Assembly (NCBI GenBank): GCA_024641125.1
Contig: JAHEDQ010000001.1
Coordinates: 6,026-59,209, forward strand
Direction of reading: 5' to 3'
From: Candidatus Competibacteraceae bacterium
GTDB taxonomy: Bacteria; Pseudomonadota; Gammaproteobacteria; Competibacterales; JAHEDQ01
Length of the DNA stretch: 53,184 nucleotides
The notes under the pieces are model-generated. The model had not been told where the DNA came from. It made no database searches and was given only the letters and a program-made list of their open reading frames with translations. This document shows positions 20,237 to 52,477 of the stretch, one piece after another (positions within the stretch are counted from its first letter, which is position 1; every line of letters begins with the position of its first letter). A program made the translations under genes and the position numbers.

Positions 20237-20238
20237 AC

Positions 20239-25083: not shown

Positions 25084-25532
25084 TGGATCTGGACGACCTG
25101 TACCAGGAAGTGATCCTGGACCACAAGCGCAACCCAAGGAATTTCGGGCCCATGCCCGATGCAAACCGGAACGTGGATGGGTTCAATCCCCTGTGCGGCG
25201 ATCATATTCACCTGCACATGAAACTGGCAGGCGACGTGATAGAGGATGTGCGCTTCGAAGGAGAGGGCTGCGCCATTTCCACAGCCTCGGCTTCGTTGAT
25301 GACCGAAGCGCTCAAGGGCAAGCGGGTCGAGGAAGCTGAGCGCATGTTCGAGGCGGTCCATGCCCTGCTGACCGAAGAGGATGTCGATCCCGACCTGGGC
25401 CAACTCGGCAAGCTGGCCATCTTTTCCGGCGTGAGACAGTTTCCGTCCCGGGTCAAGTGCGCAAGCCTCGCCTGGCATACGCTGTGCGCCGCCATTCAGG
25501 ATGATGGTGACGAAGTCATCACCACCGAGTAG
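25083..25532 (+). CDS. sufU: SufU-type sulfur transfer protein
   Basis: The protein has 149 residues. The three zinc-binding/acceptor Cys are in NPLCGDH, GEGCAIS and RVKCASLAW, with the Asp of CGD as fourth ligand. The insertion before the last Cys (LGKLAIFSGVRQFP) is typical of SufU rather than IscU. It probably accepts the persulfide from SufS by zinc-ligand exchange and passes it to SufBCD. It shares one base with the sufS stop. Confidence 0.95.
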   Translation: MDLDDLYQEVILDHKRNPRNFGPMPDANRNVDGFNPLCGDHIHLHMKLAGDVIEDVRFEGEGCAISTASASLMTEALKGKRVEEAERMFEAVHALLTEEDVDPDLGQLGKLAIFSGVRQFPSRVKCASLAWHTLCAAIQDDGDEVITTE

Positions 25533-25542
25533 GGGAGGTCGG

Positions 25543-30463: not shown

Positions 30464-31456
30464 CTATCGATCGCCGGTCGCTCCGCCGGTGCGGGGGCGG
30501 CGGTTGCGCAGGGCGGACGGGTTCTGTCCATAGGTATTGCGGTAGCAGCGGGAAAAACTGGGAAGGGAAGCGAATCCACAGCGAAAAGCGATGTCGGTCA
30601 CGGAATGCTGACTTTGCTCCAGCAGCCCGCGCGCCCGTTCCAGCCGCAGTCGTCGATAGTAGGCGCCGGGGGTGATACCCAGCCACCGGTTAAACACACG
30701 TTCCAGCTCGCGCAGCGATATGTCCAGACAAGTGGCAAGGTCACGGGTGGAAAGTGGCTCTTCGATACGTGATTCCATCAACGCCACGGCACGGTGCACG
30801 TTCGCATTGGGGCATTGCAGGCGTTGGTCCAGGCTGTGGCGCTGGGCGGCATCGGCCGAGCGCATCGGGCTGTAGACGAACTGTTCGGCCACCGACACCG
30901 CCAATGCCCGCCCGTGCCGACATTCTACGATGTGCAGCATCAGGTCCAGACATGCGGTCGCGCCGGCGGCGGTCAGGCGGCCGCGATCCACCAGGTACAG
31001 TGCTTCCCGTGTCTGTACCGCCGGGAATCGTTCCCGGAAATCGTCCAGCGCCTCCCAGTGCACCGTGGCCTGATATCCGTTGAGCAATCCGGCTCGGGCC
31101 AGTACATAGGCACCGGTGTCCGCCGCCGCCAGATGTGTGCCGGCCAGGGCACGGCCCCTGAGCCACCCCAGCATACGGCTATCGACGGCCGACATGGGCT
31201 GGTCGCTGGCCAGAACCACGACCAGGTCGGACGGCGGTGCGTCATGCAACCCGTGCTCCACGACGCTGACCATATCGTTACTGGCCCGGACCGGGGCGCC
31301 GTCAGGGGACATCAGGGACCACTGAAACAGCCGGCGACCTGAGATCCGGTTCGCCGCGCGCAGCGGCTCCGTGGCCGATGAGAAGGCCATAAGCGAGTAC
31401 TGGGGGAGCAACAGAAAGATCAGTTTCAAAGGCGTGGGGCCGTCTGCGTCGAGCAT
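30464..31456 (-). CDS. GlxA-type AraC-family regulator, CdhR-like
   Basis: The protein has 330 residues. The N-terminal DJ-1/PfpI-like domain (LIFLLLPQYSLMAFSSATEPLRAANR, then HWEALDDF) lacks an amidase triad and serves as a sensor. The C-terminal AraC-type double helix-turn-helix ends DIAFRCGFASLPSFSRCYRN. This is the CdhR/GbdR/ArgR/SouR class. Divergence from the carnitine operon (BKACE start 136 bases away) makes it the likely activator, as CdhR is for carnitine dehydrogenase in Pseudomonas. The carnitine assignment is from context. Confidence 0.9.
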   Translation of the reverse strand: MLDADGPTPLKLIFLLLPQYSLMAFSSATEPLRAANRISGRRLFQWSLMSPDGAPVRASNDMVSVVEHGLHDAPPSDLVVVLASDQPMSAVDSRMLGWLRGRALAGTHLAAADTGAYVLARAGLLNGYQATVHWEALDDFRERFPAVQTREALYLVDRGRLTAAGATACLDLMLHIVECRHGRALAVSVAEQFVYSPMRSADAAQRHSLDQRLQCPNANVHRAVALMESRIEEPLSTRDLATCLDISLRELERVFNRWLGITPGAYYRRLRLERARGLLEQSQHSVTDIAFRCGFASLPSFSRCYRNTYGQNPSALRNRRPRTGGATGDR

Positions 31457-31592
31457 GATCTTGGCCCTCGAAACTTACACTCGAAACAATCGTTAAATGT
31501 TAAGTCGCCGTCGATAAATGAAAACATGAGCGGGACGCCAATGCTAGCGTGCGAATGTGCAACCTCAAGCCGAGGCGGAACCGGGAGCACTC
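31457..31592. promoter_or_regulatory. divergent control region cdhR-like / carnitine operon
   Basis: 136 relatively AT-rich bases lie between the divergent genes. It contains TTAAATGTTAAG (about 31493-31504) and GATAAATG (about 31512). These may be parts of promoters or a GlxA-type operator, but no -35/-10 pair can be named with confidence. GGGAG precedes the BKACE ATG at 31593. Confidence 0.45.
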
Positions 31593-32504
31593 ATGAGCCT
31601 CACGCCGAATCGGAATCTGTTCATTACCTGCGCGGTCACCGGCTCCGGTGGCACCCAGGATCGATCACCCCATGTGCCGCGCAGCCCGGCGCAGATTGCC
31701 GCCAGCGCCATCGACGCGGCCAAGGCAGGCGCAGCGGTGGTGCATTGCCACGTGCGGGATCCGGAATCCGGTGCGCCCAGCCGTCGGGTGGCGCTCTATC
31801 GGGAGGTGACCGAACGCATACGGGCCGCCGATGTGGATGTGGTGCTCAACTTGACTGCGGGTATGGGGGGCGATCTGGTGTTCGGCTCCAGCGAATCACC
31901 CCTGCCATTGGATGCCCAGGGTACGGATATGGTGGGCGCCAGCGAACGCATGCGCCACGTGGCCGTGTGCCTCCCCGAGATCTGCACGCTGGACTGCGGC
32001 ACCATGAACTTCGCCGAAGCCGACTATGTCATGACCAACACCCCCGGGATGCTGAGGGCCATGGGCAGGATTACCGCGGAACTCGCGGTGCGCGCCGAGA
32101 TCGAGGTGTTCGACACTGGCCATCTTTGGCTGGCCAAGCAACTGGTCAAAGAGGGCGTCATTGGCGATCCGGTGCTGTTGCAGCTGTGCATGGGCATCCC
32201 ATGGGGCGCGCCGGACGATCTCAATACGCTGATGGCCATGGTCAACAACATACCGCAGGGGTGGCATTTCTCCGCCTTTTCCATCGGCCGCAATGAGATG
32301 CCCTATGCGGCTGCGGCGATGTTGGCCGGCGGCAATGTGCGGGTCGGACTGGAAGACAATCTCTGGCTGGACAAGGGTGTGCTGGCCACCAACGCGCAGT
32401 TGGTCGAGCGTGCCGCCACCGTGGTCACCAATATGGGTGCTCGGCTCATGGGTCCGGCAGAGGTGCGGGACATGTTGGCACTCACCAAGCGGGCGCCGGC
32501 GTGA
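31593..32504 (+). CDS. BKACE-family enzyme, probable 3-dehydrocarnitine cleavage enzyme
   Basis: The protein has 303 residues from the ATG at 31593 (GGGAG upstream; a GTG at 31557 is less likely). It belongs to the beta-keto acid cleavage enzyme family: a Zn-dependent TIM barrel with FITCAVTGSG, the metal-binding HCHVRDPESG and LNLTAGMGGD. For dehydrocarnitine the reaction is with acetyl-CoA to betainyl-CoA and acetoacetate. That specificity is inferred from fusion to carnitine dehydrogenase in the next gene, with which it overlaps in GTGA. Confidence 0.9.
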   Translation: MSLTPNRNLFITCAVTGSGGTQDRSPHVPRSPAQIAASAIDAAKAGAAVVHCHVRDPESGAPSRRVALYREVTERIRAADVDVVLNLTAGMGGDLVFGSSESPLPLDAQGTDMVGASERMRHVAVCLPEICTLDCGTMNFAEADYVMTNTPGMLRAMGRITAELAVRAEIEVFDTGHLWLAKQLVKEGVIGDPVLLQLCMGIPWGAPDDLNTLMAMVNNIPQGWHFSAFSIGRNEMPYAAAAMLAGGNVRVGLEDNLWLDKGVLATNAQLVERAATVVTNMGARLMGPAEVRDMLALTKRAPA

Positions 32505-33982
32505 AGCGCGGGGGGCGGGCGGGCATTATCGGGGGCGGTGTCATTGGCGGCGGTTGGGCCGCGCGTTTCCTGCTGCACGGCTGGGATGTGGCGGTCTACG
32601 ATCCCGCACCCGAGGCCGCCCGGATGGTGGGGGAGGTGCTGGAAAATGCCCGGCGGGCCTTGCCGTCCCTCGCCGACTGCGACATGCCGGTGGAGGGCCG
32701 TCTGACGTTTTCGGCGTCCCTGGCCGAGGCGGTGGTCGGCGCCGCGTGGATACAGGAAAGCGTGCCGGAACGCCTTGCGCTCAAGCATCGGGTGATGGCC
32801 GAAATCCAGACCCATGCCGATCCCGATGCCGTCATCGGCTCTTCAACCTCCGGCTTCAAGCCGTCCGAACTCCAGGCCGGCGCGCCGAATCCCGGACGCG
32901 TGCTGGTGGCGCATCCGTTCAATCCGGTCTATCTCATTCCCCTGGTGGAACTGGTGCCCGGCGAGCGCTGCGATGCGGATGCAATCACCGTCGCCACCGA
33001 CGTAGTCACCGGCGTTGGGATGAAACCCCTGCTTGTGCGCAAGGAAATCGATGCCCACATCGCCGACCGTTTTCTGGAGGCCGTCTGGCGTGAGGCGCTG
33101 TGGCTGGTCAGGGACGGCATCGCCACCACCGAGGAAATCGACGACGCCATACGCTTTGGTTTTGGGCTGCGTTGGGCCCAGATGGGTCTGTTCGAGACCT
33201 ACCGTGTTGCCGGTGGCGAGGCGGGCATGGCCCATTTCATTGCTCAGTTCGGCCCCTGTCTCAAGTGGCCCTGGACCCGACTGACCGATGTGCCGGAGCT
33301 GACCGATGAGCTGGTGGACACCATCTCGGCCCAATCCGACGCTCAGTCCGGCGCTTATTCCATTCGAGAACTGGAACGCATCCGGGACGATAATCTGGTC
33401 GGTATACTTCGCGCCTTGAAGGCGCGTGATTGGGGCGCTGGTGCCCTGCTGCGGGCCCACGACCGCCGGCTGATGGCGGACATCCCAGCGGCCGAGCCGT
33501 TCGGCGAAACCTCTCCGCAGCCCTTGGAGATGCTCACTTTGACGGTCCTGCCCGCCTGGATAGACTACAACGGCCACATGACCGAACACCGCTACCTCCA
33601 GGTGTTCGGGGAGACCTCGGATGCATTGCTACGGCGCATTGGCGTGGACGCGGACTATGTCGCCTCGGGCCGCAGCTACTATACGGTGGAAACCCACATC
33701 ATGCATGTGGACGAGGTCGCGGAGGGCCAGGGTCTGAGAACCAGCACGCAGGTTCTGGCGGTGGACGACAAGCGCCTGCATGTGTTTCATCGCATGCGCG
33801 CCGCCAAAGACGATCGGCTGATCGCAACCGCCGAGCAGATGCTGCTCCATGTGGATGCGACGGCCGGTCGCGCCTGTACCGCGCAGCCGGCCGTGCTTGC
33901 CCGGCTGCGTACCCTGGCAGAAGCCCACGGCTCGCTGGCGTGGCCCGAGTCTGCCGGGCGCCGTGTCGGACAACGGGACTGA
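32501..33982 (+). CDS. lcdH: L-carnitine dehydrogenase fused to a C-terminal thioesterase
   Basis: 493 residues; GTG start inside the BKACE stop. Residues 1-320 are a 3-hydroxyacyl-CoA-dehydrogenase-like fold: the Rossmann loop GIIGGGVIGGGW, IQESVPERLALK, SSTSGFKPSEL and HPFNPVYLIPLVELVPG. Together these are the features of L-carnitine 3-dehydrogenase (L-carnitine + NAD to 3-dehydrocarnitine). Residues about 344-493 are a hotdog 4HBT domain (LPAWIDYNGHMTEHRY, catalytic Asp in IDYNGHM), like the betainyl-CoA thioesterase that in Pseudomonas is encoded separately (cdhB). The fusion gives two of the three steps from carnitine to glycine betaine in one polypeptide. Confidence 0.92.
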   Translation: MKRGGRAGIIGGGVIGGGWAARFLLHGWDVAVYDPAPEAARMVGEVLENARRALPSLADCDMPVEGRLTFSASLAEAVVGAAWIQESVPERLALKHRVMAEIQTHADPDAVIGSSTSGFKPSELQAGAPNPGRVLVAHPFNPVYLIPLVELVPGERCDADAITVATDVVTGVGMKPLLVRKEIDAHIADRFLEAVWREALWLVRDGIATTEEIDDAIRFGFGLRWAQMGLFETYRVAGGEAGMAHFIAQFGPCLKWPWTRLTDVPELTDELVDTISAQSDAQSGAYSIRELERIRDDNLVGILRALKARDWGAGALLRAHDRRLMADIPAAEPFGETSPQPLEMLTLTVLPAWIDYNGHMTEHRYLQVFGETSDALLRRIGVDADYVASGRSYYTVETHIMHVDEVAEGQGLRTSTQVLAVDDKRLHVFHRMRAAKDDRLIATAEQMLLHVDATAGRACTAQPAVLARLRTLAEAHGSLAWPESAGRRVGQRD

Positions 33983-39117: not shown

Positions 39118-40107
39118 ATGATGAAACAGGTTGCGCTGGCCGTGGCGGCTGGCATGTTCGTTTCGACGGCGTCCGCCGCTGATATTACCCTGAAAGCCTC
39201 ACACCAGTGGCCGGGGGGGAAGGGCGATGTGCGTGACGAAATGGTGCAAATACTGGCCAGCGAAGTCGAGCAGGCCAACGTGGGTCTGAAGATCCAGGTC
39301 TACCCGGGAAAATCGCTGTTCAAGCCAAAGGAACAGTGGGGTGCCATGACCAAGGGCCAGCTTGATATCTCGGCGTTTCCCCTGGACTATGCGTCCGGCC
39401 GCGTACCGCAGTTCTCCGCCACGCTGATGCCCGGCCTGGTCCGCAGCCACGATCGTGCGCTGCGTCTCAACGACTCACCCTTCATGGCGGACATCAAACA
39501 GTTGATTGAAGACAACGGCGTTGTGGTACTGGCCGATGCATGGCTGGCCGGCGCTTTTGCTTCGAAAAAGGAATGCATCACCGCACCCGAGACGATGGCG
39601 GGCCAGGTCACGCGCGCGGCCGGACCGGCCTTTGAACAAATGTTGGTGGGGGCCGGCGCCTCGATCGCTTCGATGCCGTCCTCGGAAATCTACACCGGGC
39701 TACAGACCGGCGTTCTGGATGCGGCCAACACCTCTTCCGGCTCTTTCGTTTCCTATCGCATCTACGAGCAGGTCAAATGTCTGACCGCACCGGGGGCTAA
39801 TGCCCTTTGGATGATGTACGAGCCCATCCTTATGTCCAAGAAATCCTGGGACAAGTTGGACCAGGCGCAAAAGGATGCGCTTATGGCCGCGGGACAGAAG
39901 GCGGAGGAATACTTTGTCGCCGAAGCCAAGAACCTGGACAAGGTGTTGACGGACAAATTCGCCGAAGCCGGGGTCGAGGTGGTGGAGATGAGCCCCGAGA
40001 ACTACGACGCCTGGCTGGCCATCGCCCAGGACACCTCCTACAAGGTTTTCTCCGAGAACGTGCCGGGCGGCGCGGAACTGATTGAGAAGGCGCTCGCCGT
40101 AGAGTAG
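39118..40107 (+). CDS. TRAP transporter solute-binding subunit (malonate, DctP-type)
   Basis: 329 residues; GGAGGA 8 bases before the ATG. A Sec signal peptide covers about residues 1-21 (ending STASAAD). The DctP fold is shown by LKASHQWPGG, GQLDISAFPL and the substrate-carboxylate Arg region QVTRAAGPAFEQML followed by GLQTGVLDAANTS. It is periplasmic and feeds the QM permease. The malonate assignment rests on matA/matB in the same unit. Confidence 0.92.
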   Translation: MMKQVALAVAAGMFVSTASAADITLKASHQWPGGKGDVRDEMVQILASEVEQANVGLKIQVYPGKSLFKPKEQWGAMTKGQLDISAFPLDYASGRVPQFSATLMPGLVRSHDRALRLNDSPFMADIKQLIEDNGVVVLADAWLAGAFASKKECITAPETMAGQVTRAAGPAFEQMLVGAGASIASMPSSEIYTGLQTGVLDAANTSSGSFVSYRIYEQVKCLTAPGANALWMMYEPILMSKKSWDKLDQAQKDALMAAGQKAEEYFVAEAKNLDKVLTDKFAEAGVEVVEMSPENYDAWLAIAQDTSYKVFSENVPGGAELIEKALAVE

Positions 40108-40219
40108 AGACCTGGCGTCCCCAGCCGGGCGGCCATGGCCCGGCCTGGGGGCGGTTCCCGCAACCAAAATGGCCCACCGCCCGCCTCGATCGGCGTGCTG
40201 TGGGCCCAGGGCCGGTGGC

Positions 40220-40759
40220 GTGCAAACCTTTATCAGATTCGTCAGCGGGCTGTCGCGATTCGCCGGGTTTCTCGCAACCCTGCTGCTGGGTCTGGCGGTG
40301 CTGGTGGTTTGCCAGATGATCGTGGTGCGCTACTTTTTAAACGCGTCCACGGTTTGGCAGACCGAATTTGTCATCTACAGCCTGGTGGCCGCGACCTTCA
40401 TCGGATCGCCCTACGTGCTGATCCGAAAAGGTCACGTGGGCGTCGATCTCATCCCCAACGCACTGAGCGGTCGAGGCAGGATTGCGCTCGATGTGGCGGC
40501 CGCAGTTCTGTCCCTGGTGTTTCTGTGCATTCTGACCTGGTCAGGCTGGCACTATTTTTATGAGGCCTGGCAGGGTCGCTGGACCACCGACACGGTGTGG
40601 GCCCTGCCCCTTTGGATTCCCCTGCTGCCGCTGCCCCTGGGCATGGGTTTGCTCTGTCTCCAATACATCGCCGAGATTCTGAGAATCGTCTCCGGTGAGG
40701 GCGAGGGACCCGCCCTGGGCGCCCATGGGCTTAAGGACATTGAAGGGATGGCCGACTGA
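40220..40759 (+). CDS. TRAP transporter small permease subunit (DctQ-type)
   Basis: 179 residues from a GTG at 40220; no family similarity is seen upstream of it. Four membrane helices are predicted, with the DctQ signature SPYVLIRKGHVGVDLIPN and the WRTDT-like WTTDTVWALPLW. It bridges the binding protein and the large subunit in the inner membrane. Its stop overlaps the next start by one base. Confidence 0.9.
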   Translation: MQTFIRFVSGLSRFAGFLATLLLGLAVLVVCQMIVVRYFLNASTVWQTEFVIYSLVAATFIGSPYVLIRKGHVGVDLIPNALSGRGRIALDVAAAVLSLVFLCILTWSGWHYFYEAWQGRWTTDTVWALPLWIPLLPLPLGMGLLCLQYIAEILRIVSGEGEGPALGAHGLKDIEGMAD

Positions 40760-42090
40760 TGACACCGTTGATGAGTGGGTTGATCGTCCTGATCGTGTTG
40801 CTCGTTTTACTGGCCACCGGGATGCCCATCGCGTTCGCCCTGGGTCTGGTGGCGGTGGGCGCTTTGGTGCTGACCGACGGTTGGAGCGTCATTGACATCG
40901 TCGGGGAGACCTTCTTCGCCGGTTTGGCCGAGTTTGGATTGGTATCGATCCCCATGTTTATTCTGATGGGTGCGGCGGTGGCATCCAGTCCGGCCGGAAA
41001 AGATCTCTACGAGGCGCTGGACCGCTGGCTCAACCGGGTTCCTGGCGGACTGATTCTTTCAAACATCGGAGCGTGTTCGGTATTCGCCGCTCTGTCCGGA
41101 TCCAGCCCCGCCACCTGTGCCGCCATCGGCAAAATGGGCATCCCCGAGATGCAACAGCGGGGATATCCCGACACCATTGCCGCGGGTTCGATCGCCGCTG
41201 GCGGCACGCTCGGCATTCTCATCCCGCCGTCGGTCACCATGATCGTCTACGGTATCGCCACCGAGACCTCCATCGGTCGCCTGTTCCTCGCCGGGCTGCT
41301 GCCGGGTCTGATGCTGACCGTCCTGTTCATGATCTGGGCGATCATCGACTGCCGCCGCCAGGGCTATTCCTTCGAGCAGGCAGCGCAGCGGTTTACGCTC
41401 CGCCAGAAGCTGGAGGCGCTGCCTCGGGTTTTACCCTTCCTGGCCATCATCGTGGCCATCCTGTATGTGCTTTACGGCGGAGTGGCGACACCGTCCGAGG
41501 CCGCCGGTGCCGGCGCCTTGTTCTGCATTCTTCTGGTGGTGGTGATCTACCAGCTGATTCCCAAGCGGCGCATCGATTTTGCGAGTCTTGGCAAAGTGTT
41601 CGGCGACTCCATTCGCGAGTCGATCATGATCATGCTGATCATCGCCGCCTCGGAGCTGTTTTCCTTCGCCCTATCCTCCATGTTCGTGACCCAATCCGTC
41701 GCCGAGTGGATCGCGGCCCTGGAAGTCAACCGCTGGGTCTTGATGGGGATCGTGAATCTGTTTCTGCTGGTGGCCGGCTTTTTCCTGCCGCCGGTGGCGG
41801 TGATCCTGATGACCGCGCCGATTCTGATACCCATCATTTTGCAGGCCGGCTTCGATCCCTACTGGTTTGCGGTCGTGCTCACCATCAATATGGAGATCGG
41901 GTTGATTACGCCGCCGGTGGGATTGAACCTGTACGTCATCAACGGCATCGCCCCGGATATCTCGTTGAAATCCATCCTGGTCGGATCGCTGCCATTTGTG
42001 CTGTGTATGGTGCTGGGCATCCTGCTGTTGTGCGTATTTCCCGGCATAGCCACCTGGTTGCCGGAGTACATGATGGGGGCGGCAATATGA
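40759..42090 (+). CDS. TRAP transporter large permease subunit (DctM-type)
   Basis: The protein has 443 residues with about 12 membrane helices. FVALSGSSPATCAAIGKMGIPEM-type motifs (AALSGSSPATCAAIG), GGTLGILIPPSVTMIVYG and the later MEIGLITPPVGLNLYV are DctM hallmarks. It forms the Na-coupled elevator channel. It overlaps matA in an ATGA. Confidence 0.95.
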   Translation: MTPLMSGLIVLIVLLVLLATGMPIAFALGLVAVGALVLTDGWSVIDIVGETFFAGLAEFGLVSIPMFILMGAAVASSPAGKDLYEALDRWLNRVPGGLILSNIGACSVFAALSGSSPATCAAIGKMGIPEMQQRGYPDTIAAGSIAAGGTLGILIPPSVTMIVYGIATETSIGRLFLAGLLPGLMLTVLFMIWAIIDCRRQGYSFEQAAQRFTLRQKLEALPRVLPFLAIIVAILYVLYGGVATPSEAAGAGALFCILLVVVIYQLIPKRRIDFASLGKVFGDSIRESIMIMLIIAASELFSFALSSMFVTQSVAEWIAALEVNRWVLMGIVNLFLLVAGFFLPPVAVILMTAPILIPIILQAGFDPYWFAVVLTINMEIGLITPPVGLNLYVINGIAPDISLKSILVGSLPFVLCMVLGILLLCVFPGIATWLPEYMMGAAI

Positions 42091-43433
42091 ACAGCGGCGG
42101 TCTGTTACAGGATATCCTGATCAACGTTGCGGAGCGTGGACGCAGTCTGCTCGGGCCGACATCCTCGAGCAAAGCTTCCGTGGAGTCGATTCTCGAGCAG
42201 TGCGATACGCTCCTGACCAGCCGGGGCGAGGCGTCGGGCGTGGCCTTGGCCCGCAGGCTGGTGGGGCAGTTGGATGCCCTCAGCGCGGATGAACTGCTGG
42301 TGTTTTTTCGCGCGCTCTCGGAGCGTTACTCGCCTGATCCCGAGGCGGTTGGCGCCGCCGCCAAGGCTTACGCAGAGGCCGCGACGCCGGATACCCTAGC
42401 GCGTCTGCTTTCAGTCTCCGAGCCACCCCGCCAGGAGTTGTTCCGGCGGCTGAATCTGGCGCCCGGCGCCACCGCCGCTCTGGTTGCTATGCGCCGTGAA
42501 CTCATAGGCCATCTTTCAGATGAGCCGGCCCTGCGGGTGGTAGACGCCGACCTGATCCATTTGCTTACCTCCTGGTTCAATCGTGGGTTTCTGGTCATGC
42601 GTCGTATTGACTGGCAGTCGCCAGCCCACATTCTGGAAAAACTGATCGAGTACGAGGCGGTGCATCAGATTCATGGCTGGGACGATCTGCGCCGGCGGCT
42701 GGCGCCGGCGGACCGTCGATGTTTCGCCTTTTTCCACCCGGCCTTACCCGACGACCCGCTGATATTCGTCGAAGTGGCGCTGACCGATTCGATACCGGAG
42801 AACATCGCCGGATTGCTGAGCGAGGGTCGCGACGTGGTCACCGGCAGTCGCCGCACGGTGGCGGTGTTCTATTCCATTTCCAATTGTCAGGCGGGCCTCA
42901 AGGGTATTTCTTTTGGCAATTTCCTGATCAAACAGGTGGTGGAGGACCTCAGGCAGGGGCTGCCGTCGCTGAAGTCCTTCGTAACCTTGTCGCCGGTCCC
43001 CGGTCTGCTCCGCTGGCTGAGCGCTACTGCGGGGGCAGAGACGCCGGTCGAGGCCGTGATCCAGGCGTTGAAACAGGCGGACTGGCACCGCGACCCGGGC
43101 ATCGCCGATGCACTCAAAAAACAGCTGACGCCTCTGGCGGCCCGCTATTTTCTGACCGAGAAACGGCCGGACGGGACCCCCCTGGATCCGGTCGCCCGCT
43201 TTCACCTGGGCAATGGGGCGTCGCTTCACCGGCTCAACTGGCTGGGCGACCTGTCGGCCAAAGGCATGCGCGAGTCCGCTGGGTTGATGGTGAATTACCT
43301 GTACGATCCGGCCTCAATCGAAGCCAATCACGAGGCCTACGCTGATGGTGGGAAGGTGGTCGCTTCCCGCGCAGTGCGGGCCCTGCTGCCGGCCCAGCGC
43401 ACCAAGAAAGCCAAGGTAAGCCCCGATGCCTAA
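42087..43433 (+). CDS. matA: malonyl-CoA decarboxylase
   Basis: 448 residues from the ATG at 42087 in the dctM stop; the same frame is open much further upstream, but that part overlaps dctM and is not real. The N-terminal helical domain is followed by the GNAT-like catalytic domain: FFHPALPDDPLIFVEVALT, YSISNCQAGLKGISFGN (catalytic Ser) and RFHLGNGASLHRLNWLGD (catalytic His). It converts malonyl-CoA to acetyl-CoA and CO2. It is followed by matB with an 8-base overlap. Confidence 0.95.
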   Translation: MNSGGLLQDILINVAERGRSLLGPTSSSKASVESILEQCDTLLTSRGEASGVALARRLVGQLDALSADELLVFFRALSERYSPDPEAVGAAAKAYAEAATPDTLARLLSVSEPPRQELFRRLNLAPGATAALVAMRRELIGHLSDEPALRVVDADLIHLLTSWFNRGFLVMRRIDWQSPAHILEKLIEYEAVHQIHGWDDLRRRLAPADRRCFAFFHPALPDDPLIFVEVALTDSIPENIAGLLSEGRDVVTGSRRTVAVFYSISNCQAGLKGISFGNFLIKQVVEDLRQGLPSLKSFVTLSPVPGLLRWLSATAGAETPVEAVIQALKQADWHRDPGIADALKKQLTPLAARYFLTEKRPDGTPLDPVARFHLGNGASLHRLNWLGDLSAKGMRESAGLMVNYLYDPASIEANHEAYADGGKVVASRAVRALLPAQRTKKAKVSPDA

Positions 43434-44946
43434 CGTTCTGTTCGATGCTTTACTCGGCGAAATCGCGAACCCAGGCAAGGTTTTTCTGGATGTCCCGGGC
43501 GGAGGCAGTGTCACCTTCGATCAATTGGAGACCATGACGGCACGTGTCGCCGGTGCTCTGCAGCGCCTGGGTGTGGCTCCCGGCGACCGGGTGGCGGCCC
43601 AGGTGCCCAAGTCGGTGGATGCAGTCGCCCTGTATCTGGGCGTGGTCCGCGCAGGCGCGGTTTTTCTGCCCCTGAACACGGGCTACACCAGCGCCGAGGT
43701 TGCCTACTTTCTGACCGATGCGGCGCCGGCCGTGTTTGTGTGCACACCGGCTTCCGAAAGCGCGCTGGCCCCGATTGCCGCCACCGCCAAGGCGCTGCTC
43801 CGAACCCTGGATGCGGACGGCGCTGGAAGTTGGCCGGCGGAACTTGCCCTGAGCGCCGATGGCTTTGTCGGCGTGGACCGGGGTCCGGACGATCTGGCCG
43901 CCATCCTGTACACCTCCGGCACCACCGGCCGCTCCAAGGGCGCTATGCTGACCCACGGGAACCTGCTGTCCAACGCCCGGGTTCTGGTGACCTACTGGCA
44001 GTTCACCGATCGCGACGTGTTGCTTCATGCATTGCCAATATTCCACACCCACGGCTTGTTCGTTGCCCTCAATGTGGCGCTGCTTGCGGGCGCCAGCGTG
44101 ATCTTCATGGAACGCTTCCAGGTTGATGACATCCTGCGCCAGATGCCGCGTGCCACCAGCATGATGGGTGTGCCCACTTTTTATAGCCGGTTGCTGGCTC
44201 AGCCGGGGTTTACTGCCGAGCTGGCCGCCAACATGCGCTTGTTCGTTTCCGGTTCGGCTCCCATGTCGGCCGAGGTGCACAAAGCATTTATGGAGCGCAC
44301 CGGAAAATCGATCCTCGAGCGCTACGGCATGACCGAGACCAACATGAACACCTCCAACCCCTATCTGGGGGATCGACGCCCGGGCACGGTGGGTTTCCCC
44401 CTGCCCGGCGTGTCCTTGCGGATCTGCGATCCCGCCAGCGGAGAGGTGCTGCAGACCGAGCAGGTCGGCGTGATCGAGGTACGCGGGCCCAACGTGTTCA
44501 AAGGCTACTGGCAGATGCCGGAAAAGACGGCAGCGGAGTTTCGCGACGACGGGTACTTTATCACCGGGGATTTGGGACGTATCGACCCCGATGGCTACGT
44601 CCACATTGTGGGACGGGACAAGGACCTGATCATCACCGGCGGTTTCAACGTCTATCCGGCCGAAGTCGAGGCCGCCATCGACGCATTGCCCGGCGTGGCT
44701 GAATCTGCCGTCGTGGGCGTGCCCCATGCCGACTTCGGTGAAGGGGTGGTGGCAGTGGTGGCGCCGCGACCCGGTGCGGACCTGAACGAGACCCGGATTC
44801 GCGATGCGCTACGTGGTCACATAGCCGCTTACAAGCTGCCGAAACGGGTCCTGTTTGTCAGTGAATTGCCGCGCAACACCATGGGCAAGATCCAGAAAAA
44901 TCTGCTGCGCGAGCAGTATGGTAGCGCCTGCGAAGGCTCGGCCTGA
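43426..44946 (+). CDS. matB: malonyl-CoA synthetase
   Basis: The protein has 506 residues, the MatB length. It is an AMP-forming acyl-CoA synthetase: P-loop LYTSGTTGRSKGAMLTHGN, GYFITGDLGRID, and C-terminal Lys in NTMGKIQKN. The RYGMTETNMNTSNPY stretch is typical of malonate-specific members. It makes malonyl-CoA from malonate, CoA and ATP. With the TRAP transporter and MatA it completes uptake and conversion to acetyl-CoA. Confidence 0.95.
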   Translation: MPNVLFDALLGEIANPGKVFLDVPGGGSVTFDQLETMTARVAGALQRLGVAPGDRVAAQVPKSVDAVALYLGVVRAGAVFLPLNTGYTSAEVAYFLTDAAPAVFVCTPASESALAPIAATAKALLRTLDADGAGSWPAELALSADGFVGVDRGPDDLAAILYTSGTTGRSKGAMLTHGNLLSNARVLVTYWQFTDRDVLLHALPIFHTHGLFVALNVALLAGASVIFMERFQVDDILRQMPRATSMMGVPTFYSRLLAQPGFTAELAANMRLFVSGSAPMSAEVHKAFMERTGKSILERYGMTETNMNTSNPYLGDRRPGTVGFPLPGVSLRICDPASGEVLQTEQVGVIEVRGPNVFKGYWQMPEKTAAEFRDDGYFITGDLGRIDPDGYVHIVGRDKDLIITGGFNVYPAEVEAAIDALPGVAESAVVGVPHADFGEGVVAVVAPRPGADLNETRIRDALRGHIAAYKLPKRVLFVSELPRNTMGKIQKNLLREQYGSACEGSA

Positions 44947-46612: not shown

Positions 46613-47194
46613 ATGAGTCAGGTGGCGTTTACCCGCATGACGGACGGCAGCGCGGAAGACTATGCGCTCTTGGCGCGCTTGGAACAGGCCTACTGCGAAC
46701 GCCTGCCCGATCGTCTGCTGGCCGCCCTGCGACAGCTTGACGACTCACTGGCGGGCTATCAGGTCAGCCGGCTGGAACACTGTCTGCAGGCTGCCACCCG
46801 GGCGCAGCGGGCGGGGGAGCCGGAGGAAGTGGTGATGGCGGCGCTGTTGCACGACATCGGCGACAGTCTGGCGCCGTACTCCCACAGCGAGATGGCCGCT
46901 GCGGTCCTGCGACCCTTTGTGTCGGATCGGGTCTACTGGATCGTCAAGCATCACGGCGTGTTCCAGATGTACTATTACGCCCATCACCTGGGGCGCGATC
47001 GGAACGCACGTGATCGCTTTGCTGGTCACCCCTGGTACGATGACGCGGTCAGGTTTTGCGAGCAATACGATCAGAACTGTTTCGACCCGAACTACGACTG
47101 GATGCCGCTGACGCAGTTCGAGCCCATGTTGCGTCGTTTGTTTGCCAAGCCCCGGTTACTGGACGCGGATAGCGCTCCTGGTGTCGACCCATGA
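46613..47194 (+). CDS. HD-domain protein of the PhnZ/TmpB/MIOX-like diiron oxygenase group
   Basis: 193 residues from the ATG at 46613, with GGGAGGGGATC upstream. The ligand set expected for mixed-valent diiron HD oxygenases is present in order: His56, His80-Asp81 (ALLHDIGD), His91 (YSHSEM), His113/114 (KHHGVFQ) and Asp153 (EQYDQNCFDP). The 24-residue spacing of the first two matches PhnZ from memory. These enzymes cleave C-C or C-P bonds of hydroxylated substrates with O2; TmpB makes glycine betaine from a trimethylammonio-phosphonate. The substrate here is not known. It may also be a phosphohydrolase-type HD protein. Confidence 0.75.
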   Translation: MSQVAFTRMTDGSAEDYALLARLEQAYCERLPDRLLAALRQLDDSLAGYQVSRLEHCLQAATRAQRAGEPEEVVMAALLHDIGDSLAPYSHSEMAAAVLRPFVSDRVYWIVKHHGVFQMYYYAHHLGRDRNARDRFAGHPWYDDAVRFCEQYDQNCFDPNYDWMPLTQFEPMLRRLFAKPRLLDADSAPGVDP

Positions 47195-47279: not shown

Positions 47280-49709
47280 TCAGGCCCTCAGGCGGCTGTT
47301 GTCCGGGTCGTAGATCGGTTCCGAGACAACCGTCGCCGCTCTGCGATGGCCGAAGATGTCCACTTCCAGCGCGGTGCCCGGTTCGGTGAGATCGATCCGC
47401 ACATAGGCCAGGGCGATGCTCTTGCCGATGGCGTAGCCATAGCCGCCCGACGTCACCAGGCCGACGGTGTCCAGGCCCTGGAACACGGTGGCGCAGACCG
47501 GGGCGTCGGTCCCTTCGGCCTCTACCAGCAGGGGCACAAGCCGTTGCCCGAGTCCGGCCTGCTGTTGCGCTCTCAGGGCCTCCCGCCCGGGGAAGGGACC
47601 CTTGTCCAGATCCACGAATCGGTTCAGGGACGATTCCCAAGCTGAGTACTCGTCTACCAGATCCACCTTCCAACTGCGATAACACTTTTCCAGGCGCAGC
47701 GAATCCAGGGCGTACATGCCGAAGTCGGCGACACCCAGGTCTGCGCCCGCCGTCATCAGTCGATCGTACACGGGCTGCATGCCGGCCATGGGCAGGTGGA
47801 GTTCCCAGCCCAGCTCGCCGACGTAGTTGACCCGCAGCGCTCGCACCGCCATGAAACCGATTTCGATGGGTCGGGCACATAACCAGGGAAACGCGGCGTT
47901 GCTGAGATCGGCATCGGTGACCCGCTCCAGCAAGGTGCGGCTCTCGGGACCGGCGATCACCAGGGTGCCGTAGAGCCCGGTGACATTGTCCAGACGCACC
48001 GATCCATCGGCCGGCAAATGCTGGCTCAGCAACTGCTTGTCGTGCCATTCGGCACCGCCTGCGCAACAGAGATAGAAGCGGTCTTCCGCCCAGCGGGTCA
48101 CGGTGAATTCGCTTTGCACCCCACCCCGTTCCGTGCAGACGTAGCACAGACCGATCCGGCCGATTCGCGGCAGCCGTCCGGCAACGAGTCGGTCAAGGTA
48201 TTGGGCTGCGCCGGTACCGGAAACCTCGAATTTCGCGAAACCGGGCAGGTCCAGGATCGCCACCCGTTCCCGCACCGCTTTGCATTCCCTGCCCACGGCC
48301 TCGAACCAGTTGGTCCGGTGAAAGCTAGCCTGCTCGACCGCGTCCATGTCCTCGGGGGGAAACCATGCGGCCCGTTCCCAGCCTGCCCGGGCGCAGAACA
48401 TGGCCCGCTTGGCCTTGAGCGTGCCGTACAGGGGTGAGGTCTTGGCGGGCCGACCTGCTGGCCGCTCCTCGAAGGGAAAATTGATAGCGTACTCGCGGCC
48501 GTAGAGTTCGATGGCCTTTTGCCGGGTGTACTCCAGATTGGCGTAGTCGGTGTAACGGCGCGGGTCCACCACCCAGGTGTCCCACTCGGCCTGACCATGA
48601 ACAATCATCTCTGCCAGGCATTTGCCGGCGCCGCCCCCCTGGGCGATGCCAAAACTGAATGCGGCGCAAAGATAAAAATTGTCCAGGCCGTGAACCGGAC
48701 CGATCAGGGGCAGACCATCCGGTGTATAGGGAATGGGCCCGTTGATGACACGCTGTACCCCGCCCTCGGCCAGGATGGGGACCCGCTTCATGGCATCCTC
48801 GATGTAAAACTCCAGCCGCTCCAGGTCGGGTTCGAACAGTTCCATGGCGAACTGGTCGGGCAGGGAGTTCACCCAGCAGGCCTTACAGTCTCGCTCGTAG
48901 GGGCCCAGAATAAGACCCTTGCGCTCCTGGCGCAGATAGTAGGAGATGTCGGGGTCCCGCAGCAGCGGCAAATGCCCGTCCCAGTCCTCCAGCGCCGGAA
49001 TCGCTTCGGTAACCAGGTATTGGTGCTCCATGGACACCACGGGGTGTCGCATCCCGACCAGACCCGATATTTCGTTGACCCGGTAGCCACCTGCATTGAC
49101 CACGATTTCACAGCGGATGGCGCCGCCGGCTGTTTGTACCTCCCACTCACCCCCGGGGACGCGGCAGATGCCCTCGACCTTGCTGTTCCGGTAGATCCGG
49201 GCGCCGGCCGCCCGCGCGCCCCGGGCGAAGGCCTGGGTCACCTGACTGGGATCGATATCGCCGTCGCTGGGATCCCACAGGCCGCCCAGCAGGTCATGGG
49301 TTTCCATGAACGGGAAGCGGTTCTTCAGATCAGACGTGCTGAGCATTTCGAACGCGATCCCCTGGGCCCGGGCCATGCCGCAAACATGGTGGAATTCCTC
49401 CATCCGTTCCCGGCTGTGGGCCAGCCGCACGCTTCCGGTCTGGTGATAGGTGATGTTGCTGTCGGTCAGCGCGCCCAGGCGGCCATACAACTCGTTGCCA
49501 TAGCGCTGTAGTTTGATGATGTTCCAGGAACCCGAAAAACTTGGGCAGTTACCGGCAGCGTGCCAGGTGGACCCGGCGGTCAATTCATCCCGCTCCACCA
49601 GCACCACGTCGTGCCAACCCAACTGGGTGAGATGCCAGAGTGTGCTGCAGCCCGCGATGCCGCCGCCGATCACCACCACCCGGGCTTGCCCATTCAGTTC
49701 GTTTGCCAT
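47280..49709 (-). CDS. dimethylglycine/sarcosine-dehydrogenase-family flavoprotein
   Basis: About 809 residues from the ATG at 49709; a GTG at 49721 would overlap the previous gene. Domains in order are DAO (VVVIGGGIAGCSTLWHL), the flavin-attachment-type motif LTAGSTWHAAG, FAO_M (residues about 370-425), GCV_T (YLDRLVAGRLPRIGRIGL onward) and GCV_T_C (ending SEPIYDPDNSRLR). This is the architecture of DMGDH: oxidative N-demethylation with transfer of the methylene group to tetrahydrofolate or release of formaldehyde. It lies directly downstream of the MttB-family gene. Dimethylglycine is the likeliest substrate, but a related methylamine is possible. Confidence 0.88.
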   Translation of the reverse strand: MANELNGQARVVVIGGGIAGCSTLWHLTQLGWHDVVLVERDELTAGSTWHAAGNCPSFSGSWNIIKLQRYGNELYGRLGALTDSNITYHQTGSVRLAHSRERMEEFHHVCGMARAQGIAFEMLSTSDLKNRFPFMETHDLLGGLWDPSDGDIDPSQVTQAFARGARAAGARIYRNSKVEGICRVPGGEWEVQTAGGAIRCEIVVNAGGYRVNEISGLVGMRHPVVSMEHQYLVTEAIPALEDWDGHLPLLRDPDISYYLRQERKGLILGPYERDCKACWVNSLPDQFAMELFEPDLERLEFYIEDAMKRVPILAEGGVQRVINGPIPYTPDGLPLIGPVHGLDNFYLCAAFSFGIAQGGGAGKCLAEMIVHGQAEWDTWVVDPRRYTDYANLEYTRQKAIELYGREYAINFPFEERPAGRPAKTSPLYGTLKAKRAMFCARAGWERAAWFPPEDMDAVEQASFHRTNWFEAVGRECKAVRERVAILDLPGFAKFEVSGTGAAQYLDRLVAGRLPRIGRIGLCYVCTERGGVQSEFTVTRWAEDRFYLCCAGGAEWHDKQLLSQHLPADGSVRLDNVTGLYGTLVIAGPESRTLLERVTDADLSNAAFPWLCARPIEIGFMAVRALRVNYVGELGWELHLPMAGMQPVYDRLMTAGADLGVADFGMYALDSLRLEKCYRSWKVDLVDEYSAWESSLNRFVDLDKGPFPGREALRAQQQAGLGQRLVPLLVEAEGTDAPVCATVFQGLDTVGLVTSGGYGYAIGKSIALAYVRIDLTEPGTALEVDIFGHRRAATVVSEPIYDPDNSRLRA

Positions 49710-49714
49710 GGCCG

Positions 49715-51289
49715 CTACCAACGTTTTGAAGCAGGGTTCATGATTTCCGTCGGCAGCCTGATGGGAAATGCTGCACGCAGCTTCTGATTCAGCGCCGGGT
49801 CAATGTACTCGGGGTAGTGGCTGGACAGGATAAGTTGCACCCGCTCCCGGGCTTTCTCGATCATGTCACGGGAGCCCTTCTCCACCCATTCCTTGGGGCT
49901 GAGACGGTCCGCGACTTCCGGGTAGACATAGTCTTTCTGCATTAATTCCATGGTCTGGCCGTGACCCAGATAGTGGCTGGGTCCGCCGATGCAGACATCG
50001 CGCATGGCGTCGATGGACAGGCTTTGCTCGGTGATCTCGATCCCGCGGATGGTTCTCAGCACCGCACCCAGCATATCGTTGTCTATGACAAAACTCTCTA
50101 GGCAACAGCCCAGCAGGCTGGCCAGCATACCGGCGGATTCGTACACGATGTTGGCGCCGGCCTGACCGGCCAACACCGTGGTGTAGGCTTTCTCCAGGCC
50201 GGATTGGGCGTCGGGCAGTTTCGAGTCCGCCATGCCCGCCGCAACGCCGCCGGGCAGATCGTAGAAGCCGGACATCTGGGCGCAGGCCGCCATCAACACG
50301 GCCTGTTCGCCGCTGCCGCCGCTCATGGCGCCGGTGCGCAGGTCGGAGATAAACGGCCATGTCCCGAAAATGGCCGGCGACCCCGGTACGATGGCGTTGA
50401 CGTATACCAGGCCGGCCAACACCTCCGCCACCTCCTGAACCAGCGCGCCGGCCAGCGACGCAGGGCTGGTGGCGCCGGCCTGACCCGCCGCCAGCAACAG
50501 GACCGGCATGCCAGCCTCCACCGCCACTTCGAGACAGCGGCAGGCGTCTTCGGCAAAGCGCAGCGGTGGCACCACAAAGCAGTTGGACATGCTGACGAAG
50601 GGCCGCTCACGCCACTTTTTCTCGCCGCCGGCGATCATGTGCAGCATGGCCACCGATTCCCGTACATGGTCCGGTTCCACCCAGCTTGTGCCCACATGTT
50701 TGCGGGTTCCGGCCAGCGCTGCGTAGCAGGTGTTCAGATCCATTTCCCGCGGATCGACCAGGTCCCGGGCCACCACCGAACGTTGAAACATATGGACATT
50801 GTCCAAAGTGTCCACCAGCCGGCTGATGTCGTAGAGATCGGCCAGAGTCGAGTCGCGGTAGGCGCGGGTCTGGGCATCCACCATGTGCACCGCGGCGCCG
50901 GCAGTGGAGAAGTGCACCCGGGTACCGGACAGGTCCAGATCATGTTGCGGATCCCGGGCGTGCAGCAGGAAGTTGCGCGCCGCGGACGCCACCGTGTCTT
51001 CCACGAGACTGCGTGGAAAAAGCAGGCGGCCCTCTTCCGTCAACCGCCCGCCCAGCGCCTCGATGCGTCGCACACAGCTGGGAATGGCGTTTGCAATGCC
51101 GATGTTTTCCAGCACCTCCAGTGCCGCCGAGTGGATTCGGCGCATCTCTGGGTCGGTAAGGGGCTTGTAAGCGCCCCCCTCCAAACCAGGCCTGACCGGC
51201 CTCAGTTCAGGTGGCAGAGGCGCTCGGCGTGCCGCCTGGCGGTCGGTTCGGGCGTGCCCTCTGCGGCCACGGGTTCGGGTTTCGGACAT
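49715..51289 (-). CDS. MttB-superfamily methyltransferase, non-pyrrolysine type
   Basis: 524 residues without an in-frame amber codon, so it is of the non-Pyl group that includes glycine-betaine methyltransferase MtgB. The TIM barrel features FGTWPFISDLRTGAMSGGSGE, FYDLPGGVAAGMADSKLPD and GGPSHYLGHGQTMELM are characteristic. The N-terminal 40 residues are Arg-rich. GGGAGA precedes the ATG. It lies 156 bases downstream of the GbdR-like regulator and just before the DMGDH-like gene. Known members move a methyl group to a corrinoid protein; no corrinoid protein or activator is in this window. Glycine betaine to dimethylglycine is the likeliest reaction (inference). Confidence 0.87.
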   Translation of the reverse strand: MSETRTRGRRGHARTDRQAARRAPLPPELRPVRPGLEGGAYKPLTDPEMRRIHSAALEVLENIGIANAIPSCVRRIEALGGRLTEEGRLLFPRSLVEDTVASAARNFLLHARDPQHDLDLSGTRVHFSTAGAAVHMVDAQTRAYRDSTLADLYDISRLVDTLDNVHMFQRSVVARDLVDPREMDLNTCYAALAGTRKHVGTSWVEPDHVRESVAMLHMIAGGEKKWRERPFVSMSNCFVVPPLRFAEDACRCLEVAVEAGMPVLLLAAGQAGATSPASLAGALVQEVAEVLAGLVYVNAIVPGSPAIFGTWPFISDLRTGAMSGGSGEQAVLMAACAQMSGFYDLPGGVAAGMADSKLPDAQSGLEKAYTTVLAGQAGANIVYESAGMLASLLGCCLESFVIDNDMLGAVLRTIRGIEITEQSLSIDAMRDVCIGGPSHYLGHGQTMELMQKDYVYPEVADRLSPKEWVEKGSRDMIEKARERVQLILSSHYPEYIDPALNQKLRAAFPIRLPTEIMNPASKRW

Positions 51290-51445: not shown

Positions 51446-52477
51446 TTAAAGCGCGGCTGCAACCGCTTGGTCCACGGGCGAGTGCCGCGTCTGTCTTGGA
51501 GGGTGGCCAAAACGCCCGCGATAGCAGCGGCTGAAGTGCCCGGGAGATACAAAACCGCTGGCCAGGGCTACCTCGGTGATGGACAGCGAGGTCTGCTCCA
51601 CCAATTGCCGTCCGTGGTTGAGGCGTACGGCCATGTAGTAGCGCGAGGGTGTGGTTTTCAAATAGGCCTGGAACAGGCGCTCCAGTTGCCGTTTGGTGAT
51701 GCCGATGGCGTCGGAAATCTCCGTCACGGTCAGGGGCTGTTCGATGTTGGCCTCCATCAGCGCAATGGCATCCAGCACCCTGGGCTGGCGGATGCCGGTG
51801 CGGGATTCCAGGCTCAAGCGCTGCGGCACACTGGCGTCCCGTAAGCTTCCGTGCATAAACATGTCGGACACCGCCAGGGCCAGATCCCGGCCCTGTTGAC
51901 GTTCGATCAGATGCAGCATCAAATCCAGCGCAGCGGTGCCCCCTGCACAGGTCAGTCGGGGGCCATCGATCTCGAACAAGCGGTTTGAAATAACCAGCTC
52001 TGGAAAGGACTCGACCATGCCGGCGCGGTTTTCCCAGTGCACCGTGCAACGCCTTCGGGCCAGCAATTCCGCCTGGGCCAGAACATACGCGCCGGTGTCC
52101 AGCCCACCCAGAATCGATCCGCGTCGATCCAGTTCCCGTAGCCAACCCAGGACCTTGGGGTCGCGGTGGTGATGGGGATCATGGTGTCCGAGTACCAATA
52201 GCAGCGGGGTGGTCTTGACCTGGTCGAGGGCGGCGTCGGCCTGCTGCTGCATGCCGTTCGCGGCCCGGACCGGCCCGCCGTCGCGGGTGATGACCTGCCA
52301 GCTATAGAGATCGCGACCGCTCAGCCGGTTGGCTACCCGCAGGGGTTCCACCGCCGAGACGAAGGCCAGCATCCCGAAACTGGGCTCGAGGTAAAAACTG
52401 ACGAGCCGCTCCGCCGGCCCGGATGGGACGCCGAACTGGGTCGGCTTCGGGGGCGCCGATGTGTTTTCAGTTGTCAT
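51446..52477 (-). CDS. GlxA-type AraC-family regulator, GbdR-like
   Basis: 343 residues. The N-terminal DJ-1/PfpI-like sensor domain (VSFYLEPSFGMLAFVSAVEPLRVANRL) is followed by an AraC double helix-turn-helix (DAIGITKRQLERLF and LASGFVSPGHFSRCYRGRFG). This resembles GbdR, the glycine-betaine/dimethylglycine-responsive activator of Pseudomonas, more than a generic AraC protein. It lies between the ThiS-like gene and MttB, and probably controls the group. It shares architecture, but little length-wise identity by eye, with the CdhR-like regulator at 30.5 kb. Confidence 0.9.
   Translation of the reverse strand: MTTENTSAPPKPTQFGVPSGPAERLVSFYLEPSFGMLAFVSAVEPLRVANRLSGRDLYSWQVITRDGGPVRAANGMQQQADAALDQVKTTPLLLVLGHHDPHHHRDPKVLGWLRELDRRGSILGGLDTGAYVLAQAELLARRRCTVHWENRAGMVESFPELVISNRLFEIDGPRLTCAGGTAALDLMLHLIERQQGRDLALAVSDMFMHGSLRDASVPQRLSLESRTGIRQPRVLDAIALMEANIEQPLTVTEISDAIGITKRQLERLFQAYLKTTPSRYYMAVRLNHGRQLVEQTSLSITEVALASGFVSPGHFSRCYRGRFGHPPRQTRHSPVDQAVAAAL

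Follow-up and report, generated by a model that had tools for sequence, protein, structure and literature searches.

What does an MttB-superfamily methyltransferase without pyrrolysine do in an apparently aerobic bacterium, where its neighbours are a flavoenzyme of the demethylating kind and a GbdR-like regulator? The question is raised by a gene at positions 49715–51289 of a 53,184-nucleotide stretch from Candidatus Competibacteraceae bacterium (assembly GCA_024641125.1, contig JAHEDQ010000001.1, positions 6,026 to 59,209 of the forward strand), the whole of which is called the window here. Our answer, to which we give a probability of about 0.6, is that the encoded protein belongs to an aerobic demethylase of several components, as its betaine:cob(I)alamin methyltransferase of the MtgB2 type. 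A cobalamin/tetrahydrofolate mechanism acting on some quaternary amine is very likely, and the balance tips slightly towards glycine betaine as the main substrate. The gene is the second of three that follow one another on the minus strand:

51446..52477, minus strand: GbdR-like AraC-family regulator (DJ-1/PfpI and HTH_18 domains; NF052371, 362 bits), upstream of the MttB homologue and co-directional with it
49715..51289, minus strand: MttB-superfamily methyltransferase, probably MtgB2-type, 524 amino acids (assigned from open reading frame, PF06253, trees, residues and predicted model)
47280..49709, minus strand: dimethylglycine dehydrogenase (DMGDH)-like flavin adenine dinucleotide (FAD)/GcvT enzyme, 809 amino acids (PF01266, PF16350, PF01571, PF08669), starting 5 nucleotides past the MttB stop codon

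The MttB homologue is a real gene and an intact member of the MTTB family. Its open reading frame covers exactly the stated positions, though on the minus strand, a point absent from the preliminary description; it begins with ATG and has no internal stop, and the terminal TAG is the sole in-frame amber codon. PF06253 (MTTB) matches the protein with 390 bits (Pfam gathering cut-off 25) over positions 3–490 of the 500 in the profile, and five distinct sequences of solved proteins (MtgB, MttB and S. meliloti 4YYC) match it with E values of 1e-64 to 1e-46. TIGR02369, the NCBIfam equivalog for trimethylamine methyltransferase, gives 384.9 bits, under its cut-off of 525. The MttB positions Gly110, pyrrolysine 334 and Tyr364, named in the accessible portion of PMC9842639, align with Gly131, Met353 and Tyr383 of the window protein. 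The preliminary description, which had called the protein a non-pyrrolysine homologue with no in-frame amber codon, is borne out by Met353 and by the terminal place of the TAG, and identity with pyrrolysine MttB was rejected on the same residue, on the lack of an internal stop and on the missed TIGR02369 cut-off.

The three positions were compared across 79 window-type proteins. The first is Gly in all of them, the pyrrolysine position is Met in 68 (Ala in 5, Ile in 4, Tyr in 2), and the third is Tyr in 68, His in 6 and Thr in 5. D. hafniense MtgB and 4YYC carry Tyr, Leu and Leu instead, and 8 further MtgB-like proteins vary there (first position Tyr in 5, Ala in 3). At these positions, which make up one third of the pocket, the window protein resembles pyrrolysine-MttB, with Met353 replacing pyrrolysine. 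The predicted model of the protein (predicted local distance difference test score 86.8) is closest to MttB (Z 51.0, 50.1 and 50.1), followed by MtgB (49.3 and 49.2), 4YYC (47.9) and, as the next fold, MtmB (24.9). A published description of the active site or ligand of MtgB (9YCE) was not found in our literature search.

These comparisons bear on two alternatives. The small lead that MttB has over MtgB in modelled fold (Z 51.0 vs 49.3) and in sequence (32 vs 29% identity), together with the retained equivalents of Gly110 and Tyr364, could be taken to indicate a methyltransferase for trimethylamine or another tertiary amine, like pyrrolysine-MttB; the Met at the pyrrolysine position, the amber codon found only at the end of the gene, and neighbours that match betaine breakdown make this highly improbable. 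We consider it just as implausible that the protein is a decayed or moonlighting paralogue without methyltransferase activity. Its Pfam score is indeed the lowest of five copies in the genome (390 vs 637–787 bits), but the open reading frame is intact, the predicted fold is of high confidence, 32 columns are invariant in an alignment of 37 proteins (a subset of those available, one of them MtgB-type), and the neighbours recur in other genomes.

The partners of a corrinoid-dependent methyltransferase are encoded elsewhere in the window genome (G000; 4.76 Mb in 357 contigs, 94.4% complete, 3.3% contamination), where contig C245 carries four consecutive genes:

Contig C245, first gene: MtgC corrinoid protein (PF02607 and PF02310, with DxHxxG at residue 131)
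Contig C245, second gene: DUF1638 protein (PF07796)
Contig C245, third gene: MtgD, pterin-binding methyltransferase (PF00809, 95 bits)
Contig C245, fourth gene: RamA/RACo reactivase (PF14574, PF17651, PF17650, PF00111), reaching the contig end

We take DxHxxG to be the motif of corrinoid (B12-binding) proteins. The C245 MtgC scores 172 bits with TIGR02370, short of the cut-off of 215, and is 77–79% identical to the MtgC of five Ruegeria genomes and one Roseovarius genome (6/6 searched). A FolD gene on the same contig was labelled by eye, and a classical MetH is also encoded in the genome. An aerobic family member that might do without corrinoid partners, as first envisaged, is therefore not what the genome holds: the search for MtgC-like and RamA-like proteins recovered both on C245, with MtgD and DUF1638 beside them.

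In the scheme that we propose, the substrate of the window enzyme would be a quaternary betaine, most likely glycine betaine, of which one methyl group would be transferred to the cob(I)alamin of the C245 MtgC; the C245 MtgD would then pass this group to tetrahydrofolate for oxidation via the folate one-carbon pathway. RamA and the DUF1638 protein would hold the cobalamin in the reduced state. The adjacent FAD/GcvT enzyme would oxidise what remains of the substrate, dimethylglycine or a comparable N,N-dimethyl amino acid, and the GbdR-like regulator probably senses the betaine.

Both neighbours named in the preliminary description, a flavin demethylase and a GbdR-like regulator, were seen again. 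The flavoenzyme has the domain order DAO, FAO_M, GCV_T and GCV_T_C and contains WHAAG, presumably the motif of the covalent-flavin His in dimethylglycine dehydrogenase; its top solved relative is dimethylglycine dehydrogenase 4P9S (639 bits), the bacterial N,N-dimethylglycine oxidase reaching 354. Dimethylglycine dehydrogenase and sarcosine dehydrogenase alike fit this domain order and motif, and the enzyme is best described as DMGDH-like. The genome encodes seven full-length DMGDH- or sarcosine dehydrogenase-like FAD-GcvT proteins and probably two sarcosine-oxidase-like sets, as judged from matched regions; the closest of these paralogues to the window enzyme is the copy on contig C192 (46 and 50% identity over two pieces). 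The regulator falls below the cut-off of the GbdR equivalog NF052371 (362 of 480 bits) and is likewise described as GbdR-like only.

The 5 nucleotides between the two genes, the folate-binding GcvT domain of the FAD enzyme and the occurrence of an FAD gene no more than 3 kb away in 17 of the 37 loci of the window clade invite a different mechanism, in which tetrahydrofolate in the GcvT domain receives the methyl group without the corrinoid protein, or in which dimethylglycine is channelled within a physical MttB–DMGDH complex. Corrinoid machinery is present, however, in this genome and in every MTTB genome sampled, the fold is closest to corrinoid methyltransferases (Z 48–51), and we know of no precedent for a folate-only route in the MttB superfamily. 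We regard this mechanism as very improbable, and a corrinoid-independent reading is not favoured because the partner proteins were found in the genome. The direct hand-over to the DMGDH-like enzyme suggested earlier may take place, the basis for it being the adjacency of the genes.

Four genes of the PF00115 heme-copper oxidase family, which also includes nitric oxide reductases, point to a capacity for aerobic life, which is not the same as proof of expression. The aerobic context first proposed for the gene agrees with them; the view that an aerobic member would be unusual has been overtaken by the 2025 work on aerobic MtgBCD. A corrinoid protein and an activator do exist away from the gene, and expression restricted to anaerobic conditions is not indicated, because related systems function in aerobically grown bacteria according to the available parts of PMC12478193 and PMC5764234.

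The association between MTTB proteins and the reactivase extends beyond this genome. Of 184 genomes sampled from the same class, 10 contain MTTB and 12 contain RACo, with RACo in 10/10 MTTB genomes vs 2/174 MTTB-free ones (Fisher p = 7e-15, uncorrected for kinship, the 10 genomes representing 9 genera; p = 1e-13 with the window's own genome removed). The tree identifies window-type copies in 5 of these 10 genomes (G000, G035, G067, G074 and G190), and the score by itself points to one in G100. G158 has a low-scoring copy (363 bits) that was rejected as window-type, since it groups with MtgB types on a long branch, and typing by Pfam score alone is unsafe because of this case. A second sample consisted of 20 genomes holding relatives of the window gene, picked from 69 loci and searched for RACo and MTTB copies: RACo is present in 19, and none of the 20 lacks a high-scoring MTTB copy (best 669–806 bits).

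The gene is not, as might be supposed, the only MttB of an aerobic genome, which contains five MTTB copies in all. The most informative of the other four lies on contig C192 and gives 423 bits with D. hafniense MtgB and 777 with S. meliloti 4YYC, to which it is 70% identical. The window copy gives 217 and 160 bits with the same proteins and 216 with pyrrolysine-MttB, and it is 25–26% identical to either the C192 MtgB or 4YYC. C192 carries a MetF-like fragment at its end, a PutA-like gene (labelled by eye), the MtgB gene, a DMGDH-like gene, a betaine-homocysteine methyltransferase/MtgE-like gene (492 bits, exceeding its cut-off of 338) and a GbdR-like gene (so labelled from a phmmer match of 322 bits with the window regulator), and has the appearance of a canonical set for the aerobic use of glycine betaine. 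Of the remaining copies, the one on C180 (L084) stands with an enolase-superfamily-like gene (by eye) and a flavoenzyme of the old yellow enzyme (OYE) type (TIGR03997, 484 of 793 bits), and the one on C74 (L086) with CoA-transferase-like and tripartite-transporter-like genes, both labelled by eye.

In a tree of 90 proteins, whose midpoint root is uninformative on descent, the 79 window-type proteins form one set (Shimodaira–Hasegawa-like approximate likelihood ratio test, SH-aLRT, 98) separate from 10 MtgB types (100), and pyrrolysine-MttB joins the window-type side on a very long branch. The window protein belongs to a set of 37 (SH-aLRT 95) together with members from the Deltaproteobacteria metagenome-assembled genome CPC53 and from SAR324, a member from S. 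meliloti pSymB and four Ruegeria genes that lie ahead of mtgC; the clade linked to MmgE/PrpD genes, the SPOA type and the OYE-linked types fall outside it. A matching set of 32 proteins was recovered as a single group in 98% of 200 bootstrap trees (13 ungrouped rows uncounted). The tree and the residue and neighbour counts exclude L033, which has the same contig and reading frame coordinates as L032, and the partial proteins of L076 (first frame), L078 and L079; a more careful 75-row tree was built without L127, L077, L122 and 12 near-copies. The window gene suggests that MtgB1 and MtgB2 are two distant, co-occurring subfamilies, the second often paired with a DMGDH-like enzyme.

The neighbourhoods of relatives agree with a place in betaine breakdown. 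Within 3 kb, the 37 loci of the window clade (our own included) have an FAD gene in 17, a GbdR gene in 7 and both in 6, vs 1, 0 and 0 of the 28 loci of the sister clade; full 3-kb flanks were available for 20 of the 37 and 26 of the 28. One contig end of CPC53 carries, in order, a methylenetetrahydrofolate reductase-like gene, RamA, an FAD gene and a window-type MttB gene, and another a window-type MttB gene, a haloacid dehalogenase-family gene (by eye), MtgB, MtgC, DUF1638, MtgD and serine dehydratase. Over the 547 bases that the two ends have in common they are 89% identical, some bases being ambiguous, which fits one gene or two close copies. RamA immediately precedes the window-type gene in SAR324 (L030), and in L098 the gene is flanked by a GbdR-like regulator and an OpuAC betaine-binding protein. 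In G002, G007, G015 and G020 no more than 20 kb separates a window-type gene from an MtgB that comparison assigns to the C192 type; in G009, G014 and G019, judged by score alone, a further high-scoring copy is found as close to a low-scoring one, the high-scoring copy of G009 being of the C74 type.

Other MttB relatives have other companions. A separate clade adjoins MmgE/PrpD-family genes in 27 of 28 loci (L037, L038, L040, L042–L054, L056–L063, L069, L074 and L075; the exception is L039), often with aldehyde dehydrogenase, alcohol dehydrogenase or glucose-methanol-choline oxidase genes alongside. Six loci (L064, L067 and L070–L073) pair an MttB relative with an OYE-type flavoenzyme (592 of 793 bits with TIGR03997 in L070), possibly a demethylase for a different tertiary amine. 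On the R. pomeroyi megaplasmid (L089) and in Ruegeria sp. THAF33 (L091), an MttB relative occurs with a class-III aminotransferase, two FAD enzymes and an Xsc-like thiamine pyrophosphate enzyme (397 of 620 bits in L091); the set suggests stepwise demethylation of a betaine followed by transamination of the amine, for example of the taurine or beta-alanine type. The best match to the megaplasmid gene among 54 genomes of the genus is 86%.

The strongest competitor of glycine betaine is another betaine handled by the same cobalamin/tetrahydrofolate mechanism: the substrate would be, for example, carnitine, gamma-butyrobetaine, proline betaine, beta-alanine betaine or choline, the FAD enzyme would demethylate the dimethyl product, and the C192 MtgB would serve glycine betaine. 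We hold this to be rather unlikely, yet several observations speak for it. A glycine betaine set is already present on C192. The window-type clades differ in their neighbours (MmgE/PrpD with aldehyde dehydrogenase and choline-dehydrogenase-like genes, OYE-type genes, or the SPOA set of aminotransferase, FAD and Xsc-like genes), and therefore the subfamily has diversified. According to the accessible text of PMC8604678, E. limosum MtyB and MtcB are 53% identical and differ in gamma-butyrobetaine/carnitine specificity. Finally, carnitine genes lie 16–19 kb from the MttB homologue, as part of an apparent breakdown module at 30464–33982:

30464..31456, minus strand: second GbdR-like regulator, beside the carnitine genes (NF052371, 306 bits, below the cut-off of 480)
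31557..32504, plus strand: BKACE-family protein, candidate dehydrocarnitine cleavage enzyme with an inferred substrate (PF05853, 325 bits)
32501..33982, plus strand: carnitine 3-dehydrogenase fused to a thioesterase domain (NF005716, 800 bits, cut-off 592; PF13279)

Genes of this kind convert carnitine to glycine betaine, so the module calls for no carnitine demethylase and could instead be an intracellular source of glycine betaine. The genes that adjoin members of the window clade (RamA, MtgC, MtgB, OpuAC and DMGDH-like genes) also argue against another betaine.

The name MtgB2 comes from R. pomeroyi. According to the portion of the PNAS 2025 report (PMC12478193) available, this bacterium needs MtgC (SPO2160) and MtgD (SPO1863) to use glycine betaine, and two MTTB proteins, MtgB1 (SPO2108) and MtgB2 (SPO2134), go up in cells grown on N-osmolytes. 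Synteny and tree suggest that SPO2134 may be of the window type. On contig C11 of Ruegeria sediminis (G013), an MtgB-type gene, a window-type gene, mtgC and DUF1638 start at about 282, 311, 339 and 341 kb, and the spacings of 29 and 28 kb agree with 26 and 26 SPO gene numbers; DUF1638 lies two open reading frames past mtgC, agreeing with SPO2162. A window-type gene lies about 28–30 kb, start to start, ahead of mtgC in four Ruegeria genomes (G013, G014, G204 and G206), and these four genes group together at 100 in the 90-row tree. Identity to the window protein is near 57% for the Ruegeria window-type protein, and identity to the C192 MtgB near 60% for the Ruegeria MtgB-type protein. The available text of PMC4809877 gave no useful anchor for SPO gene order.

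Several observations weigh against our assignment. With regard to SPO2134, the label rests on synteny; crude counts of open reading frames between the three R. sediminis genes are 32 and 23, vs 26 and 26 by numbering; and no comparable arrangement was seen in Roseovarius G016, in which the nearest MTTB copy on the mtgC contig is 330 kb off and of the MmgE/PrpD clade. In the portion of PMC12478193 available, neither MtgB1 nor MtgB2 was deleted. With regard to the substrate, glycine betaine may already be served by the C192 set: C192 has a canonical MtgB with its own DMGDH-like gene, which leaves the window copy free to have a different substrate. The window protein is also distant from its presumed models (25% identity to the C192 MtgB, 29% to D. 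hafniense MtgB, 32% to pyrrolysine-MttB). Of the 37 clade loci, 17 of which have incomplete flanks, 20 showed no FAD gene within 3 kb, and none was seen within that distance of the four Ruegeria members, around which 1.2–15 kb were examined. RACo was not seen in G018, a metagenome-assembled genome and one of the 20 searched. The matching 32-row set is supported at 87/88 (unstarred) in the careful 75-row tree, and support for the window clade is moderate, not decisive. Lastly, the genome consists of 357 contigs and has 3.3% contamination, so that wrong binning of C245 or C192 is possible.

An MtgB2-type betaine methyltransferase would belong to a kind of enzyme that is already known from MtgB, from aerobic MtgBCD and from the E. 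limosum paralogues. The window system resembles R. pomeroyi MtgBCD in being that of an aerobic bacterium with an MTTB-family B subunit, separate MtgC, MtgD, DUF1638 and RamA genes and an MtgE-like gene, and R. pomeroyi MtgB2 in particular by its putative membership, from synteny and tree, of an orthologous clade; unlike R. pomeroyi, the window genome also has a classical MetH and a linked GbdR–MttB–DMGDH-like unit. MtgB itself was reportedly described by Ticak in 2014. With D. hafniense MtgB (2QNE, 9YCE) the window protein shares a non-pyrrolysine MTTB fold (Z 49 over 465–466 residues) and, as we expect, methyl transfer from betaine to cob(I)alamin, whereas the D. hafniense host is anaerobic, identity is 29%, and Tyr and Leu stand in place of Gly131 and Tyr383. 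M. barkeri pyrrolysine MttB (7XCL–7XCN) is similar in fold (Z 50–51) and in the Gly110 and Tyr364 equivalents, but differs in having pyrrolysine where the window protein has Met353, at 32% identity, and trimethylamine is not the donor that we expect. The C192 MtgB and S. meliloti 4YYC are of the same family but of a separate subfamily, the former likewise adjoining DMGDH-like and GbdR-like genes.

E. limosum, a gut acetogen, likewise has several MTTB paralogues per genome (MtpB, MtcB, MtyB and MthB), each with its own quaternary amine; they are described in the accessible parts of PMC8604678 and PMC12155760 and are stated in that of PMC12478193 to use one common corrinoid protein. A split methionine synthase with RamA-like and DUF1638 proteins is reported, in the part of PMC5764234 available, from aerobically grown P. 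inhibens. Tentatively, and with the odds somewhat against it, we suggest that the MtgB2-type clade could be a separate line of betaine:corrinoid methyltransferases, aerobic, retaining features of the pyrrolysine-MttB pocket (Gly131, Tyr383) but with Met in place of pyrrolysine, organised in a dedicated regulator–methyltransferase–flavoenzyme unit, acting on a betaine or in a regime unlike that of the canonical MtgB1 of the same cell, and sharing one MtgC/MtgD/RamA core with it. Our literature search, mostly outside subscription papers and thus no proof of absence, found no paper in which MtgB2 is set apart as a subfamily or given a substrate. Betaine-type osmolytes are recycled by aerobic bacteria, marine ones above all, and the published work on aerobic MtgBCD names two B subunits without separating their roles in the portion available (PMC12478193). 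The window gene frames the question of which betaine each subfamily uses and why both are kept, and it aids the reading of genes labelled 'trimethylamine methyltransferase family protein'.

One further gene lies next to the three-gene unit, convergent with the FAD gene, and its membership of the unit is uncertain:

46613..47194, plus strand: HD-domain protein, weakly PhnZ/TmpB-like (PF01966, 33 bits)

Relatives of this protein (205 bits) occur 16 and 51 bp from MttB genes in the Ruegeria loci L040 and L045, hinting at a recurring oxygenase partner. Consensus scans for promoters (1 promoter-like site vs 1.3 expected) and terminators (6 terminator-like sites vs 4.5 expected, standard deviation 1.9) gave numbers near chance. 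Farther away, 39118–44946 holds a tripartite ATP-independent periplasmic transporter, a malonyl-CoA decarboxylase-like frame (by eye) and a malonyl-CoA synthase (795 bits, cut-off 558), and looks like a set for malonate uptake and use, and 20233–26088, named by eye, is an ordinary SUF iron-sulphur assembly cluster.

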